A DNA stretch of 64,000 nucleotides from Acidobacteriota bacterium (GTDB lineage Bacteria; Acidobacteriota; Polarisedimenticolia; J045), in the NCBI GenBank assembly GCA_025456425.1, contig JALOKP010000017.1, positions 1 to 64,000 on the forward strand, read 5' to 3'. A program made the position numbers and the translations under genes. The stretch's first letter is position 1, and every line of letters begins with the position of its first letter. Shown piece after piece: positions 18,317-32,714 of the stretch. The notes beneath the pieces were generated by a model. It had not been told where the DNA came from. It did not search any database and saw nothing but the letters and a program-made list of their open reading frames with translations.

Positions 18317-18666
18317 TGGTGGAGGCGGTGGGAATCGAACCCACGTCCGAGGATGGTCCACGACGGGCTTCTACACGCTTAGCCGCTTCATTTGGATCTC
18401 GCCTCGCGCGCTCCGAAGGGCAGGATCGCGTCCGGCCAGCCCGTTGATCTCGCTCTCGGCGGGTGGGCCGCCCACCTCGAGCCAGCCCGCGTTCATTGAC
18501 GCCCTGCCTCCCACCCACGGGCGGATCGGAGAGGACGCACCGCCTTTAGTTAGGCAGCGATTGCGTAGTTGGTGTTGGCGTTTGTAAGCTTCCCGTTTTT
18601 TACGAGGATCGGGAGCCTCGGCGTGCCACCCGCGCTTTCCGAACCCCGTCGAGTCCTTTCGCCCCC
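18317..18666 (-). ncRNA. ssrA: transfer-messenger RNA (tmRNA)
   Basis: 5' GGGGGCGAAAGGACTCGACGGGG; 3' GGACGTGGGTTCGATTCCCACCGCCTCCACCA; 7-bp acceptor GGGGGCG/CGCCTCC; tag ORF ends AACGCCAACACCAACTACGCAATCGCTGCCTAA = ...NANTNYAIAA*. Confidence 0.95.
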
Positions 18667-23435: not shown

Positions 23436-24214
23436 CGCAGCGCCTCCTCCAGGGGGACCGTGAGCCGCTCGCCGACGCGCGCGCGCAGCCGGCTGATGGC
23501 GCGGGTGTGGATCTGGCAGACCCGCGACTCGGTGACGTCGAGCACGGCGCCGATCTCCTTCAGCGTCAGGCCCCGCTCGTAGTAGAGCGACAGGACCATC
23601 CGCTCCCGCTCGGGCAGGTGGTCGATCTCCTGGGCCAGGACCTCGCGCCGCTCCTTCTCCTGGATCGCGAACAGCGGGCTGGCGCCGGGATCGGCCGGGT
23701 CGTTCCCCTCGTCCTCGCCGGCCGGCATGTGGCCGAGCCGGACGCCTCGCGCCTGCTGGTAGAGCGCGTGCAGCTCGTCGACCGAGAGCCCCAGCTCGGA
23801 CGCGATCTCCTCGTCCTCGGCGGGGCGCCGCGTGCGGTGCTCGACCGCGACGATCGCGGTCTCGAGCCGGCGCGCGGCGCGGCGCAGCGAACGGGGGGCC
23901 CAGTCGCGGCAGCGCACGCCGTCGAGGATCGCGCCGCGGATCCGCGCCTCGGCGTAGGTCTTGAACTGCACGCCGTGCGACGGGTCGAAGCGGTCGATCG
24001 CCTCCATCAGCCCCAGGATCCCGTCTCCGACCAGGTCGTCGAAGTCGACCGGGCCGGCCAGCCGCGAGCCGATCCGGTGGGCGAGGTACTTCACCAGCCC
24101 GGTGTGCCCGACGAGCAGGCGCTCGCGGGCGGCAGAACCGGGAACCCGGGCCGCGGCCGCCCATTCGACCGTCGGGTCGACGAGCGGGGCGTCGGTGTGC
24201 GAGGCGCCGCGCAT
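23432..24214 (-). CDS. fliA: RNA polymerase sigma factor for flagellar operon (sigma-28)
   Basis: LVKYLAHRIGSRL..DFDDLVGDGILGLMEAIDRFDPSHGVQFKTYAEARIRGAILDGVRCRDWAPRSLRR...LSLYYERGLTLKEIGAVLDVTESRVCQIHTRAISRLRARV. Confidence 0.95.
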   Translation of the reverse strand: MRGASHTDAPLVDPTVEWAAAARVPGSAARERLLVGHTGLVKYLAHRIGSRLAGPVDFDDLVGDGILGLMEAIDRFDPSHGVQFKTYAEARIRGAILDGVRCRDWAPRSLRRAARRLETAIVAVEHRTRRPAEDEEIASELGLSVDELHALYQQARGVRLGHMPAGEDEGNDPADPGASPLFAIQEKERREVLAQEIDHLPERERMVLSLYYERGLTLKEIGAVLDVTESRVCQIHTRAISRLRARVGERLTVPLEEALR

Positions 24215-25062
24215 CAGTGCTGGAGTCCCGGGTGCGTTGCGTTCCCGTCCCATCGTGGCGACGCTCCGGAGAGGCTGCGCGCGCGGGCGCGCGCGACGAC
24301 CTTGGCGGCCAACCGCTCGAGCGAGCGACTGGCGGGGGCGAGGGGCTGTTCGATCACGAGCGCGGCCTGGCGGCGCGCGGCGTCGGCGACCGCAGGGTCC
24401 TTGAGGACGAAGCCGTCGAAGTCGATCCCGCGGCCCAGGAACTGGCTGGCCGCGGCGACCAGGCGCCGGTGGACGCGGCGGGCCTCGTCCTCGTCGTCGG
24501 CGCCGTTGACGACGAGGCCGATCTCCTGGCCCGGATCGCGCCGCAGCGCGACCTTCAGCGCGGCGTAGGCGTCGACCAGCGCGGCCGGCTCGGGCCAGGT
24601 CACGAGCAGCGTGCGGTCCGCCAGCATCAGCATCCGGGAGACCTGGTCGCCGATCCCGGCCGCGGTGTCGATCAGCAGCACGTCGCAGCACTCGCCGACC
24701 GCGCGCAGCCCCTCGACGAAGTGCAGCATCTCCTCGGGCGGCAGGCTGGCCAGCTCGGGGATCCCGGAGCCGGCGGGGATCAGGCGGATCCCGCCGGGCC
24801 CCTCGATCGCCAGCTCGGTCAGCGGGACGCGCTCGCGGAAGAAGTGCTCGATCGTGCGGGGCGGAGCGAGACCGAGCAGCACGTCGGCGTTGGCCAGCGA
24901 GAGGTCGGCGTCGAGCAGCGTCGTCGCCAGGCCGTTCCGGGCCAGCGCGATCGCCAGGTTGACCGCGACGAAGGTCTTGCCGACACCCCCCTTGCCGGAG
25001 GTGACGGCCAGCACCAGCGCGCGGCGCGCGCGGCGCGGCGGGGGGGCGGCGCGGTCGCTCAT
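24214..25062 (-). CDS. flhG: flagellar number regulator FlhG/FleN (MinD-like ATPase)
   Basis: LAVTSGKGGVGKTFVAVNLAIALARNGLATTLLDADLSLANADVLLGL; DVLLIDTAAGIGDQVSRM; next to flhF. Confidence 0.9.
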   Translation of the reverse strand: MSDRAAPPPRRARRALVLAVTSGKGGVGKTFVAVNLAIALARNGLATTLLDADLSLANADVLLGLAPPRTIEHFFRERVPLTELAIEGPGGIRLIPAGSGIPELASLPPEEMLHFVEGLRAVGECCDVLLIDTAAGIGDQVSRMLMLADRTLLVTWPEPAALVDAYAALKVALRRDPGQEIGLVVNGADDEDEARRVHRRLVAAASQFLGRGIDFDGFVLKDPAVADAARRQAALVIEQPLAPASRSLERLAAKVVARARARSLSGASPRWDGNATHPGLQH

Positions 25063-26072
25063 CGCCCGGTCCCCGCGCCGCGCCAGGGGGCGGCCGGCTC
25101 GCCCGGCAGCGGCACGGCCCACGCCGCGAGGCGGCGCGGATCCGCGATCTCGAGGTCGTCCGGGACGTCGGGGCCGGTCCCGAGGTGGCGCAGCGGCAGT
25201 CCGGCCCGCGCCAGCGCGGTCACCAGGCCGCCCGGCCGCACGGCCTCGTCGATCCGCGTCGCGCCCAGCGCACCGGGGCGCAGCGGGGCGAAGCGTTTGA
25301 CGCTCTCGGTCAGCGAGTCGGCGTCGCGGTCGGCCGCCAGCAGCAGCTCGATCTCCTCGCGCCGCACGCCCGCCAGCAGACCGGCGAGCCCCTCCATCGC
25401 GGCCCGGTCGCCGCGCGGGATCCCCGGCGTGTCGAGCATCAGGAGCGCGCCGCGGCCGGCGCGCTCGCGCGCCCGCTCCAGGTCGCGCCGCTCGCGGACC
25501 GCGACGAAGGGCGCGCCGAGGATCCGTGCGAACGCCTCCATCTGCTCCGCGCCGCCGAGACGCCGGCCGTCGGCCGAGGCCAGGACCACGGGGTGCTCGC
25601 CGCGGCAGATCTCGCGCGCGGCGAGCTTGGCCAGCGTCGTCGTCTTGCCCACGCCGGGGGGGCCGACCAGCGCCAGCACCGCGGGGGCGGGGGCGGGACC
25701 GGCCGGCAGCCAGAGCGCGACCAGCCCGCGCGCGTACGAGAGCGCGGCGATCCGGTCTTCGAGCTGCTCCGCGTCGAGGTTGTGCCGGGCGGCGGCCGCG
25801 ATCCGGGCAGCGAACGGGAGCGAGAACCCCCACGCGACGAGGTCGTCGCGCAGCCGCTCGGCGGCGGCGGGGGGCGCGCCCAGTTCCGCCGCCAGGACCG
25901 GTGCCGCGGGCGCCGCGGCGCCCCACGTCCCCGGCCGTTCCGCGGCCGCGACGACCTCGACGCCGCCGGCGCCGCGGCGCGTCTCGAGCACCGCGGCCCC
26001 GGGGCCGAACTGCTCGCGCACCTGCGCCAGCGCCTCGGCCGCCGTCTTCCCGAAGAAGGTCCGCAGGATCAT
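25059..26072 (-). CDS. flhF: flagellar SRP-like GTPase FlhF
   Basis: MILRTFFGKTAAEALAQVREQFGPGAAVLETRR; ALVGPPGVGKTTTLAKLAARE; MLDTPGIPRGD. Confidence 0.9.
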   Translation of the reverse strand: MILRTFFGKTAAEALAQVREQFGPGAAVLETRRGAGGVEVVAAAERPGTWGAAAPAAPVLAAELGAPPAAAERLRDDLVAWGFSLPFAARIAAAARHNLDAEQLEDRIAALSYARGLVALWLPAGPAPAPAVLALVGPPGVGKTTTLAKLAAREICRGEHPVVLASADGRRLGGAEQMEAFARILGAPFVAVRERRDLERARERAGRGALLMLDTPGIPRGDRAAMEGLAGLLAGVRREEIELLLAADRDADSLTESVKRFAPLRPGALGATRIDEAVRPGGLVTALARAGLPLRHLGTGPDVPDDLEIADPRRLAAWAVPLPGEPAAPWRGAGTGR

Positions 26073-26096
26073 CTCAGCTCACCGCTTCCGGCGCGC

Positions 26097-26384
26097 TCAG
26101 CCACGGTCCTGTCCCAACCGCGTCAGGCGCAACGCGAGCTGCCCCCGGACCTCGACGACCTCCCCGGCCCCGATCACCGCTCCGTCGGCGAGCAGCCGGC
26201 AGGGCTCGCCGACCGGCGTCGTCAGCGGCACCAGCTGGCCGGGCGCCAGCTCGCGCAGCGCGGCGAGGCGCGCGCGCCCGGTGGCGATCCGCGCCGAGAG
26301 CGCGATCGGCAGCGCGGCAAGCTCGGGGCGCAGCAGCCCCGCGTCCGGCGTCCCTCCCGAGCGTCCGTCCCTCGTCCCGGCCAT
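26097..26384 (-). CDS. second FliN-like SpoA-domain protein
   Basis: LPIALSARIATGRARLAALRELAPGQLVPLTTPVGEPCRLLADGAVIGAGEVVEVRGQLALRLTRL. Confidence 0.75.
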   Translation of the reverse strand: MAGTRDGRSGGTPDAGLLRPELAALPIALSARIATGRARLAALRELAPGQLVPLTTPVGEPCRLLADGAVIGAGEVVEVRGQLALRLTRLGQDRG

Positions 26385-27807: not shown

Positions 27808-27827
27808 CCAGGGCCGGGAAAACGCGG

Positions 27828-27851
27828 GGGGGCGGCCGATCAGCCGCCCCC
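27828..27851 (-). terminator. hairpin between convergent genes, likely terminator of the histone-like gene
   Basis: GGGGGCGGC-cgatca-GCCGCCCCC stem; on minus strand followed by CGCGTTTTCC. Confidence 0.55.
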
Positions 27852-27864
27852 TCGGGACTCCACC

Positions 27865-28101
27865 TCAGACGTAGAAGTCGTAGGGGCGGATCGTCTTGCG
27901 GCCGTTGGCCTGGGCGAGCTTCGCAGCCCGCACACAGAGGTCGTACAGCACCTTGTTCAGCGCCTCGGGGGCGTCGGACGCCACGTTCATCCCGTGGTCG
28001 CGGAGGGCGCCCTTGACCTTGCTCATGACGAGCAGCATCTCGACGGCCTTCGCCTTGCCGGCCTTCGGCGCGGCGGTCTTCTTGGCAGCCTTCTTTGCCA
28101 T
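27865..28101 (-). CDS. bacterial histone-fold protein with Lys/Ala-rich N-terminal tail
   Basis: MAKKAAKKTAAPKAGKAKAVEMLLVMSKVKGALRDHGMNVASDAPEALNKVLYDLCVRAAKLAQANGRKTIRPYDFYV (78 aa); RxTxxxxD histone motif (R68-K-T70-I-R-P-Y-D75); SD-like AGAGAGGAGCC upstream; ATG at 28101 rather than the track start. Confidence 0.85.
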   Translation of the reverse strand: MAKKAAKKTAAPKAGKAKAVEMLLVMSKVKGALRDHGMNVASDAPEALNKVLYDLCVRAAKLAQANGRKTIRPYDFYV

Positions 28102-28307
28102 GTTCTCTGGCTCCTCTCTTTCGTCGATCCGGCGGCACGTCGCGCGCCGCACGCGCGAAAGGACGGGCTATAGGTAGCATTACCGGTGCGGGAGATTCAA
28201 GCGGGAAACGCGTTTTTTTTGGGTCTGGCGGCGGTTTTCTGCCCTTCGGCGCCGGGCCCCCGCGGCGCGCACCGCGGTTTCGGGCTAGCATTCCGGCGCC
28301 TGCCACC

Positions 28308-30491
28308 ATGTCGAAGCGTCGTTCCAGCGCAGCAACAGAGGGGTCCCCGCAGCCCGTTCCGGCCGCGCCGCCGTCGCTTTCCCCGCCGTTTCCCTCCGGC
28401 AAGGCGCTGCTCGCGATCGCCGCACTGGCCTTCTTCGCCTACCTGATGCTCCCCCCCAAGCCGATCATCAGCGACGCGGTGCGGGCCGTGACGCTGAACC
28501 CGGTCGTCCAGGAGAAGCCGCTCTCCGCGGTCTTTTCCAGCGATTTCTGGGGGGCTCCGGCCGACGCCTCCTACGGCACGCGGTCCTACCGCCCGCTCGT
28601 CGCCCTGACCTACGCGATCGAGGCGCGCGCGCTGGGCAACGCGCCGCAGGTCTACCACGTCACCGACATGCTGCTGCACGCCGGGACCGCGGTGCTGGTC
28701 ACGCTGCTGGCCGCTCTGCTGCTGGCGGGCAGCCCGTGGGCGCTCGCGGCGGGCGCGCTGTTCGCGGTTCACCCGGTGGCGACCGAGGCGGTCGCGTCGA
28801 TCGTCGGGCGCGCCGACATCATGGCCGCGGCGGCGCTGCTCGGGGCGCTGATCCTGCACCTGCTCGCCGGGAGCAGGGCCTCACCGTGGGCCTGGGAAGC
28901 GGGGGCGCTGGCGCTGCTCGGCGCCGGGCTGCTCTGCAAGGAGTACGCCGTCGCGTTCCCGTTCATCCTGGCGGCCTGCGACCTGGCGTTCCGCGCCTGC
29001 GGCCGCAGCTCGCGGGCCGACGAGCGGCGGCAGCCCGTGGTCCTCGGCCTGGCGCTGGGGCTGCTGGTGGGCTACCTCGCGCTGCGCTACGCGCTGATCG
29101 GGGCCCTGGGCGGCGTGCCGATGCTGGGCGACGGCGATCAGCCGCTGTACGACCAGCCGCTCGGCGTGAGGCTGGCGACCGCCCTCTGGCTGGTCGTCGT
29201 CTCGGCGCGCTTCATGGTCCTCCCCGTCGCCCACGACTACTTCTACGGCGCGGGAACGATCGCAATCGTGAAGGGGTTCCTCGAGCCGCGCGCGCTGGCC
29301 GGGATCGTGCTGATCGGCCTGCTCGTGGCGTGGGCCGTGCGCTCGATCGCGCGGCGGATGGACCCGGTCCCGGCGCTCGCCGTCGCGCTCTTCCTGCTGC
29401 CGCTCGCGCCCTCGCTCAACACCGTGAGCGTCGCCGGCGTGCTCTACGCCGAGCGCTTCCTCTACCTGCCGCTGGCCGGCTTCGCGCTGGGCGTGGGCTG
29501 GCTGCTGACGCGCTACGCGACCGGGCCGGCGGGCGAGCGCGCCGGCCGGATCGCGATGGCGGGAGCGCTCCTGGTCTGCCTGGTGCTGACGATGAACCGC
29601 GTCGGCGACTGGCGCTCGCAGGAGGCGCTGGCGCGGGCCTCGCTGCGCTGGTACCCGGAGAACTCCCGGGCCTGGTACGAGGTCGGGCTGGCCCACGGGC
29701 AGCGGGCGCAGGAGCTGGAGGCGAAGGGACAGGCCGAGGCCGCGCGCGCCGAACACACCGCCGCGGCGGAGGCGATCCGGCGGTCGCTCGCGGTGGAGAA
29801 CCGCGCGGCGCAGATCTGGCGCGCGTTGGCGCTGGCGGAGAAGCGCCTCGGGCGCTACGGCGAGTCGGTCAAGGCCTACCGCGAGGCGATTCGCAACGCG
29901 CCGACCGAGATCGGGATGCTCTACGCCGGGCTGGGCGAGGCGGAGCTGGAGGACGGCCAGTTCGAGGCCGCGGTGCGCTCGCTGGCACGGGCGCACGAGC
30001 TGATGCCGCGAGAACCGGGCATCGCGGCGCTGCAGGCGCGGGCCCAGGTGCGGCTGGCGCAGAAGCGGCTGCTCGAGGGACACGCCGAGGAGGCGGTCGA
30101 CCTGGCGCAGCGCGGGCTCGACAGCGGCGCGCTGTCGGCCGAGGGGACCTGGACCGCGGGCGAGGTCTTCGCCCGGGCCGGGCATCCGGAATCGGCGGCC
30201 GCCGCGTTCCGACAGGCGGCGGCCCGCGACCCGAACGTGCTGCGCAGCCGGTTCGGCGCCGCGATGCAGCTCGACCAGGCGGGGAAGCACGAGGAAGCGG
30301 CAGCCGCGTTCGCGGCGCTGCTGGTGGCCGATCCCGACCACGTCCCAACGCTCTTCAACCTCGCGCGCAGCCTCGTGCTGCTGCAACGGCCGGCCGAGGC
30401 GGTCCCGCTGCTCGAGCGCGGACTGGCGCTGAAGGAGGACGAGCGGGCGCGGGCGCTGCTGGCGGACGCGCGGCGACAGGCCGCTCGCTGA
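28308..30491 (+). CDS. TMTC-like multi-TM protein (DUF1736/PMT-type) with C-terminal TPR repeats
   Basis: SYRPLVALTYAIEARALGNAPQVYHVTDMLLHAGTAVLV, ALFAVHPVATEAVASIVGRADIMAA, LCKEYAVAFPFIL; TPRs from ~29700. Confidence 0.8.
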   Translation: MSKRRSSAATEGSPQPVPAAPPSLSPPFPSGKALLAIAALAFFAYLMLPPKPIISDAVRAVTLNPVVQEKPLSAVFSSDFWGAPADASYGTRSYRPLVALTYAIEARALGNAPQVYHVTDMLLHAGTAVLVTLLAALLLAGSPWALAAGALFAVHPVATEAVASIVGRADIMAAAALLGALILHLLAGSRASPWAWEAGALALLGAGLLCKEYAVAFPFILAACDLAFRACGRSSRADERRQPVVLGLALGLLVGYLALRYALIGALGGVPMLGDGDQPLYDQPLGVRLATALWLVVVSARFMVLPVAHDYFYGAGTIAIVKGFLEPRALAGIVLIGLLVAWAVRSIARRMDPVPALAVALFLLPLAPSLNTVSVAGVLYAERFLYLPLAGFALGVGWLLTRYATGPAGERAGRIAMAGALLVCLVLTMNRVGDWRSQEALARASLRWYPENSRAWYEVGLAHGQRAQELEAKGQAEAARAEHTAAAEAIRRSLAVENRAAQIWRALALAEKRLGRYGESVKAYREAIRNAPTEIGMLYAGLGEAELEDGQFEAAVRSLARAHELMPREPGIAALQARAQVRLAQKRLLEGHAEEAVDLAQRGLDSGALSAEGTWTAGEVFARAGHPESAAAAFRQAAARDPNVLRSRFGAAMQLDQAGKHEEAAAAFAALLVADPDHVPTLFNLARSLVLLQRPAEAVPLLERGLALKEDERARALLADARRQAAR

Positions 30492-31207: not shown

Positions 31208-31759
31208 CTACCGCCCGCGCGGCCGCTCGGCGCGCGGGCGCTCGCGCTGGCGGCGCTCCAGCAACTGCATCAACTGCACGCGCTGCTCTTTCGTCAGGAC
31301 CTTGGCCACGTCGACGCGCGAGGCGTGGCGCAGCCGCGCCCCCTGGCACTCGGCGTCGACCAGCCGGTCGATCGCCTTCTTCGCTGCGGCGTCGTCGATC
31401 GCGTCGGCGGAGATCACGCGGACCATCTCGAGCCGCGCCTTGTCGATCGCGGCGCGCAGATCGATCATCTTCTCGCCCGAGCCGAACATGATCGACTGGA
31501 TCGCCTTCTCCTGCTCGGGGCTGAGTCCCAACTGCGTCTTGAGCCGCGGCGAGGTCCACCACTCGAAGTCGGGGCCGCCGGGGCCGGGACCGAATCCGCC
31601 CGGACCGCCGGGCCCGGCGCCCGGCTCGTCGTCGCCGGGGGGCGGGGCCTGCGCCGCCGCCGGCAGCGCGAAGAGGGCGAGGAGGGCGAGGAGCAGCGCC
31701 AGCACCGAGGCGGTGCGCGCAGCGCGGTGCGTCGTCGTTCGATTCGTCCTGGGGATCAT
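31208..31759 (-). CDS. Spy/CpxP-like periplasmic protein (LTxxQ-type sensor/chaperone)
   Basis: Signal peptide; LKTQLGLSPEQEKAIQSIMFGSGEKMIDLRAAIDKARLEM...VLTKEQRVQLMQLLERRQRERP. Confidence 0.75.
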   Translation of the reverse strand: MIPRTNRTTTHRAARTASVLALLLALLALFALPAAAQAPPPGDDEPGAGPGGPGGFGPGPGGPDFEWWTSPRLKTQLGLSPEQEKAIQSIMFGSGEKMIDLRAAIDKARLEMVRVISADAIDDAAAKKAIDRLVDAECQGARLRHASRVDVAKVLTKEQRVQLMQLLERRQRERPRAERPRGR

Positions 31760-31770
31760 CAACGGTCCTC

Positions 31771-32148
31771 TCAAGAGAGCGTCTCTTCCCATTCCATGAT
31801 GCCGAGGCTGTCCGTCTCCTCGGCGGGGTCGGTCGCCGCCGGTCCTTCGGGCCACGCGCCAAACGCCTCGAGCGGGTCGGCCACCTCGTTCGCGGGCTCG
31901 GCAAACAGCGGCTCGGCCAGCCACGCCGTGCCGACCACGGGGGCGTCGGGCCCCGCCGTGCCCGCGACGCCCAGCACCGCGACGGCGATCATCGCCGCGG
32001 CGGCCGAGGCCGCGGCCAGCCAGCCGCGCGCGCGGCGCCGCGCCTCGTGAGCCTCGATCCGCGCCATGATCTCGCCCCGCTGGCGCGCGAAGAAGCGCTC
32101 CAGCTCCAGGTCGGCGAGCTCCGGGGCGCCCTGCCGGCCGTCGCTCAT
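31771..32148 (-). CDS. single-TM protein, probable anti-sigma factor
   Basis: About 45-aa cytoplasmic N-terminus then TM GWLAAASAAAAMIAVAVLGVAGTAG; translationally coupled downstream of ECF sigma. Confidence 0.6.
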   Translation of the reverse strand: MSDGRQGAPELADLELERFFARQRGEIMARIEAHEARRRARGWLAAASAAAAMIAVAVLGVAGTAGPDAPVVGTAWLAEPLFAEPANEVADPLEAFGAWPEGPAATDPAEETDSLGIMEWEETLS

Positions 32149-32714
32149 CGCGTCCCCTCCACCGCGCCGCCGAGCAGCCGGCGCAGTTCCCGGGCCCCGC
32201 GGAACAGGTGCACCTTGACGGTCCCGCTGTGCAGCCCGAGGCGCTGGGCGATCTCGTTCACGGGAAGCCCCTCCTCGTAGCGCAGTTGGAAGACCTCGCG
32301 CTGGCGACCGGGCGGCAGCCGGTCCAGCGCGCCCCGCACCGCCGTCGCCAGCTCGTCGGCCACCAGCCGCTCGTCGGCCCCCGGCGCCGGGTCGGCCAGG
32401 ACCTCGGCGAACTGCTCCGCCCCTGGGACCTCGCGGCCCCGGCGGCGGCCGCGGTCGGCGAGGTGGTTGTCGAGGATCCGGAACAGCCACGGGCCGAAGC
32501 GCGCGTCCTCGCGAAAGCGCGGCAGCCCCTGCCACGCCCGGAAGAAGGTCTCCTGCACCGCGTCGTCGGCATCCTCGAGCTTCCTCGTGCTGGCCAGGGC
32601 CCGCCCGGTGAGCGGTCGCTGGTAGCGGGCGACCAGGACGGCGAAGGCCTCGCGGTCGCCGCGCCGGGCGCGTGCCACGAGCTGTTCGTCCGGGAGGTCT
32701 CGCTCGCTCGGCAC
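32145..32714 (-). CDS. ECF-type RNA polymerase sigma factor
   Basis: DEQLVARARRGDREAFAVLVARYQRPL...LEDADDAVQETFFRAWQGLPRF...REVFQLRYEEGLPVNEIAQRLGLHSGTVKVHLFRGARELRRLL. Confidence 0.9.
   Translation of the reverse strand: MPSERDLPDEQLVARARRGDREAFAVLVARYQRPLTGRALASTRKLEDADDAVQETFFRAWQGLPRFREDARFGPWLFRILDNHLADRGRRRGREVPGAEQFAEVLADPAPGADERLVADELATAVRGALDRLPPGRQREVFQLRYEEGLPVNEIAQRLGLHSGTVKVHLFRGARELRRLLGGAVEGTR

Follow-up and report, generated by a model that had tools for sequence, protein, structure and literature searches.

The histone locus

The window, that is, the whole stretch of 64,000 nucleotides analysed here, carries a small histone gene on its minus strand (Table 1). The reading frame opens with an ATG at 28101 and closes with a stop codon at 27867-27865. 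An earlier sequence-only reading had described a 78-residue frame with a Shine-Dalgarno site while leaving the strand unstated; the translation is exact and the AGGAG lies where a ribosome-binding site is expected. G+C content is 0.62, 0.42 and 0.94 at the first, second and third codon positions, and a third-position value of 0.94 in a genome of 74% G+C is the expected coding pattern. The downstream hairpin of the same reading is present as an inverted repeat but does not convince as a terminator, since its folding surpasses that of shuffled sequences by just 1.6 sd (11 of 200 shuffles were equally good) and no terminator-like site was found there in a minus-strand scan. A consensus scan found no sigma-70 promoter for the gene, and no known RNA was found at the locus, the only one in the window being a tmRNA gene elsewhere (18317-18666, minus strand, Rfam RF00023, 178.7 bits).

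Beside the histone lies a flagellar cluster (24214-26384) with a FliN-type C-ring protein and an SRP54-type, FlhF-like GTPase, and by sequence reading also an FlhG-like MinD ATPase and a flagellar-type sigma factor. On the other side, and divergent from the histone, a gene at 28308-30491 encodes a membrane protein with C-terminal TPR repeats, homologues of which flank the histone in two genomes of the family.

Table 1. Features of the histone locus, in window coordinates
Feature	Position	Strand	Evidence or remark
Histone gene, 78 aa	27865..28101	minus	Reading frame and exact translation, phmmer, orthologues, codon-position G+C
Shine-Dalgarno AGGAG	28111..28115	minus	9 nt upstream of histone ATG
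Lys/Ala-rich N-terminal tail, residues 1-20, predicted disordered	28042..28101	minus	Sequence, pLDDT, relatives
Histone fold, residues 22-78: alpha1 26-34, alpha2 44-65, alpha3 73-76	27868..28038	minus	AlphaFold, Foldseek
Codon CTC = Leu62, dimer-dimer arginine position (R49 of HLp)	27916..27918	minus	Alignments; role per PMC12701072
G+C-rich inverted repeat 3' of histone stop	27826..27851	minus	Weak as terminator
Metal_resist/LTXXQ protein gene	31208..31924	minus	Neighbour; syntenic with histone in five relatives
ECF sigma factor gene	32145..32714	minus	Neighbour; syntenic with histone in four relatives

An alpha3-truncated histone fold

The protein is a real single histone fold of the alpha3-truncated type. 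Searched against the PDB with phmmer, it matches HLp of Leptospira perolatii (2.1e-7) and HBb (Bd0055) of Bdellovibrio bacteriovorus (3e-7), and weakly HTkC of Thermococcus kodakarensis and the HMf histones. The single sequence scores below the curated Pfam and NCBIfam cut-offs, as divergent bacterial histones can do. A class profile built from eleven orthologues of the class, with the window copy left out, was compared with the aligned stretches of HLp, HBb and HTkC returned by the searches, and gave E values of 1.4e-14 for HLp, 1.2e-13 for the planctomycete face-to-face (FtF) histone L003, 6.2e-8 for HBb and 2.2e-7 for HTkC. The AlphaFold model, a monomer built from a six-row alignment (mean pLDDT 75.7, pTM 0.52), has a low-confidence tail and a four-residue alpha3. 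With this model Foldseek, a check proposed by the sequence-only reading, placed HLp (9qt0) first, with a TM score of 0.93 by target length (TMt) and an rmsd of 0.9 A, followed by HBb (about 0.82) and HTkC (0.82-0.85), and the best matches are all alpha3 histones; a search of viral structures found no match at E 0.001. The agreement of phmmer matches, orthologue conservation, AlphaFold and Foldseek thus confirms a histone-fold pattern far beyond chance, as had been proposed for residues ~22-78.

Alpha3-truncated histones are defined by an alpha3 of 3-4 residues (PMC11390915), together with a shortened alpha2, and the predicted helices agree with this. In archaeal nucleosomal histones alpha3 runs to about 10 residues and alpha2 is longer, unlike in the window protein, and the class profile gave E 10 for an approximate HMfB sequence, while Foldseek gave the nucleosomal HMfB a TMt of 0.59. 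The short third helix noticed earlier is supported and is to be expected, being the defining trait of alpha3 histones; HLp, equally truncated, wraps DNA (PMC12701072). The RxTxxxxD signature, which forms the RD clamp, is present as well (R68-K-T70-IRPY-D75), and its R, T and D are invariant across alignment A1.

Within the alpha3 histones, dimeric HBb-type proteins cluster with HBb and are without Arg and Asn at profile positions 48 and 52; the window protein has the Asn (N66, N53 of HLp) and its class profile matches HLp far better than HBb. The likeness to HBb pointed out earlier holds for the SKVK and GRKT motifs, although the nearest characterised relative is HLp, only marginally by phmmer, and also by class profile and Foldseek. 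FtF histones are marked by a torus-shaped tetramer, predicted or observed, and by a conserved interface Arg at profile position 48; since this Arg is replaced by Leu62, the window protein is not counted as an established FtF histone. An H1-like or HU-tail protein was considered and rejected, the core being a histone fold in AlphaFold and Foldseek, and the HU/IHF copies readable in the same genome have no such tail.

Comparison with characterised histones

Functional residue roles were taken from PMC12701072, PMC11317129 and PMC11390915, and positions were mapped by alignment of the window protein with HLp (roles from PMC12701072). The residues of the fold, the clamp and the DNA-backbone contacts are mostly kept. 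Among the DNA-contact positions, S14, K15, K17, K21 and T57 of HLp correspond to S27, K28, K30, R34 and T70 and are kept or conservatively replaced, whereas A13, T27, G29 and T56 have become M26, V40, S42 and K69; the resulting K69-T70 matches the KT found in HBb and HMfB. The clamp pair R55-D62 is R68-D75, and the dimer core V16, I20, L35, L39, L42, L47 and F63 is represented by V29, L33, L48, L52, L55, A60 and F76. At the tetramer interface N53 and R55 are kept as N66 and R68, and R49, S52 and T61 are changed to L62, A65 and Y74.

The window histone thus resembles HLp, a bacterial FtF histone (9QT0-9QT2; PMC12701072), in fold, truncated alpha3, clamp, the S-K, K and basic contacts of alpha1, and two interface residues, and differs from it in Leu62, in loop 2 (RKT for RTT), in two residues beyond the phenylalanine where HLp ends, and in its 20-residue Lys/Ala tail, the N-terminus of HLp being short and disordered. 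With HBb (8CMP, 8FVX; PMC10627809, PMC11317129) it has in common the single truncated-alpha3 fold, SKVK, GRKT and the RD clamp, but HBb is a dimer with Asp at the interface Asn position, a weaker profile score and no comparable Lys/Ala tail. The archaeal FtF histone HTkC (9F2C; PMC11390915) is similar in fold and in the stretch KRAQAEGRKT (KLAQANGRKT in the window protein), and unlike it keeps the Arg, not the Asn, and has no tail. Tailed planctomycete and Krumholzibacteriota histones (L002, L003, L004, L006, L084, L086) have the same fold and a MAKK... Lys/Ala tail, with the full-length pattern of the window histone in L002 and L084, but all of them keep the interface Arg, and the FtF rows L003, L004 and L006 have just one residue following the Asp.

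Distribution and inheritance

A homologue search, as the sequence-only reading had suggested, found histones in 9 of the 12 family genomes (that of the window included), 15 of 41 class genomes and 19 of 396 genomes sampled from the phylum, and also in 128 of 296 sampled Planctomycetota genomes and 50 of 80 in the phylum of the Krumholzibacteriota MAG; all these counts include other alpha3 subtypes. The tailed subfamily itself is also present in Planctomycetota and Krumholzibacteriota MAGs. Three family genomes, two of them more than 90% complete, gave no histone. The genome of the window, which is 85% complete, yielded a single histone match, with no second histone found, and four HU/IHF genes.

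Seven loci of the family preserve the gene order with the Metal_resist protein, the ECF sigma factor or cobO-btuF-btuC, which indicates that the histone gene is resident and inherited, and dN is below dS. The tree was built from 58 columns and its deep branches are weakly supported, so it is not used to argue for any origin of the tail or for a transfer between phyla.

The N-terminal tail

The basic tail proposed from the sequence is borne out: residues 1-20 hold 7 Lys, have a pLDDT of about 50, and precede a model with no helix before residue 26. A Lys/Arg/Ala-rich tail of about 20-35 residues is found in every intact class copy of the tailed subfamily (families f1, f4 and f9), while histones from three genomes of other families of the phylum (G109, G303, G172) have no more than a few residues ahead of the fold and are tailless. 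Similar tails occur in planctomycete histones and in one Hydrogenedentota histone; the planctomycete histone L109 has an unusually long one, of about 50 residues with KKKATKKK-like repeats.

Positively charged tails have been reported as common in bacterial FtF histones (PMC11390915), and tailed bacterial FtF histones, the truncated alpha3 and DNA wrapping by HLp are likewise published (PMC11390915, PMC12701072). What is new here is the clade, the presence and absence of the tail within one phylum, and Leu62. The tailed and tailless members of this phylum are matched natural pairs for testing what a bacterial histone tail does, and the clade adds Lys/Ala-tailed histones, beside HU/IHF, to a phylum probably outside those named for FtF histones in the papers cited here.

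Leu62 and the dimer-dimer interface

An Arg occupies the Leu62 position in all 13 other rows of alignment A1, in 7 more rows from the phylum and in every one of the 20 parsed rows from Planctomycetota; of these 20, two also stand in A1 and four are identical proteins. CTC differs from CGC by one base, and Leu62 may therefore be a consensus error. On the other hand, the window copy departs from its relatives at the YWYI stretch of alpha2 too, and it evolves faster than any other row of its clade, on the longest branch (0.59), so it may be drifting or specialised. In an archaeal FtF histone this Arg forms a pair with the carboxylate at the C-terminus of the opposite dimer (PMC11390915); C-termini in the window histone's family lie two to four residues beyond the FtF end, so exactly the same pairing is impossible there, also in members that have the Arg. 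Leucine in place of the Arg, together with the two extra residues, suggests that the window copy may tetramerise less firmly or stay a dimer. HTkC, a real tetramer without one of the two polar interface residues (Glu for Asn), speaks against taking Leu62 as decisive, and a wrapping tetramer and a bending dimer appear about equally probable for this copy.

Proposed role and alternatives

The evidence points with good probability to a chromosomal, vertically inherited, alpha3-truncated single-fold histone allied to the FtF (HLp-like) type and acting as a DNA-binding nucleoid protein beside HU/IHF. Two chains would form a handshake dimer through alpha2, as the kept core residues V29, L33, L48, L52, L55 and F76 suggest, and dimers would bind the DNA backbone irrespective of sequence, using S27-K28, K30 and R34 (alpha1) together with K69-T70 (loop 2), the contact residues being held by the R68-D75 clamp if the mapping onto HLp applies. 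The disordered tail most likely adds electrostatic contacts with DNA. For the family as a whole, a tetramer closed from two dimers and wrapping about 60 bp, as in HLp, is probable; the window copy, with N66 and R68 kept, could either do so or bend DNA as a dimer. The protein would work alongside the four HU/IHF genes and not as their replacement. Counted against this explanation are Leu62, the changes of HLp T27 and T56 to V40 and K69, and the monomer-only model with its six sequences and pTM of 0.52.

That the frame is spurious or an assembly contaminant could be suspected from the sub-threshold Pfam and NCBIfam scores and the fragmented assembly, but same-family orthologues with common gene order, codon G+C like that of the host and other family-conserved genes on the surrounding 66.6-kb contig leave this reading a negligible probability, and kept synteny has already refuted it in practice. 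A histone fold serving as a low-abundance or local regulator with no global chromatin role would fit a genome with four HU/IHF genes and a gene that, to judge from the three family genomes mentioned above, is maybe dispensable in some; it is nevertheless improbable, given the kept backbone-contact residues, the basic tail and the fact that the HLp and HBb homologues are abundant cellular proteins (PMC10627809, PMC11390915).

A stronger contender, with a probability not far below even, is that the window copy has lost tetramerisation and is a tailed dimer bending DNA like HBb, its tail replacing the lost contacts. Leu62 where every aligned clade relative keeps the Arg, a C-terminus reaching past the residue that offers its carboxylate to the Arg (PMC11390915), a tree placing the window copy beside HBb that is not rejected (p-AU 0.47) and the local likeness of YDLCVRAA to QLCLKGV of HBb argue for it, whereas N66 and R68 are present, HTkC forms a crystal tetramer despite its Glu, the best tree and identity (67% to the copy in G008) group the window copy with Arg-bearing class copies, and the Arg persists in family members whose C-terminus is extended in the same way. 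A specific form of this idea, rather unlikely, is that the Arg-to-Leu change with the displaced C-terminus switched off tetramer closure in an FtF-type histone, so that a tailed dimer would remain, bending or coating DNA with the tail as substitute contact surface. If true, the locus would be a natural experiment on the interconversion of wrapping and bending histones. In any case, Leu62 allows tetramer closure to be tested through a single residue.

Other histones encountered

Genome G017, of the same class, carries a second, HBb-like histone (L058, minus strand near 4677-4501, SKLKSYIKANG...HRKTVMDRDF), which groups with HBb in the tree (93/93), plus another alpha3 histone, L021. The latter belongs with L059 and L062 to a distinct subtype, marked by IISKSRTK (alpha1) and LDKKVR (alpha2), that in some cases shares a genome with the tailed subtype (G060). 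A histone-fold frame at L083:4998-5180 (MATSKDILIVGSKAK...) is a relative on a 619-kb, putatively viral contig of a viral collection.
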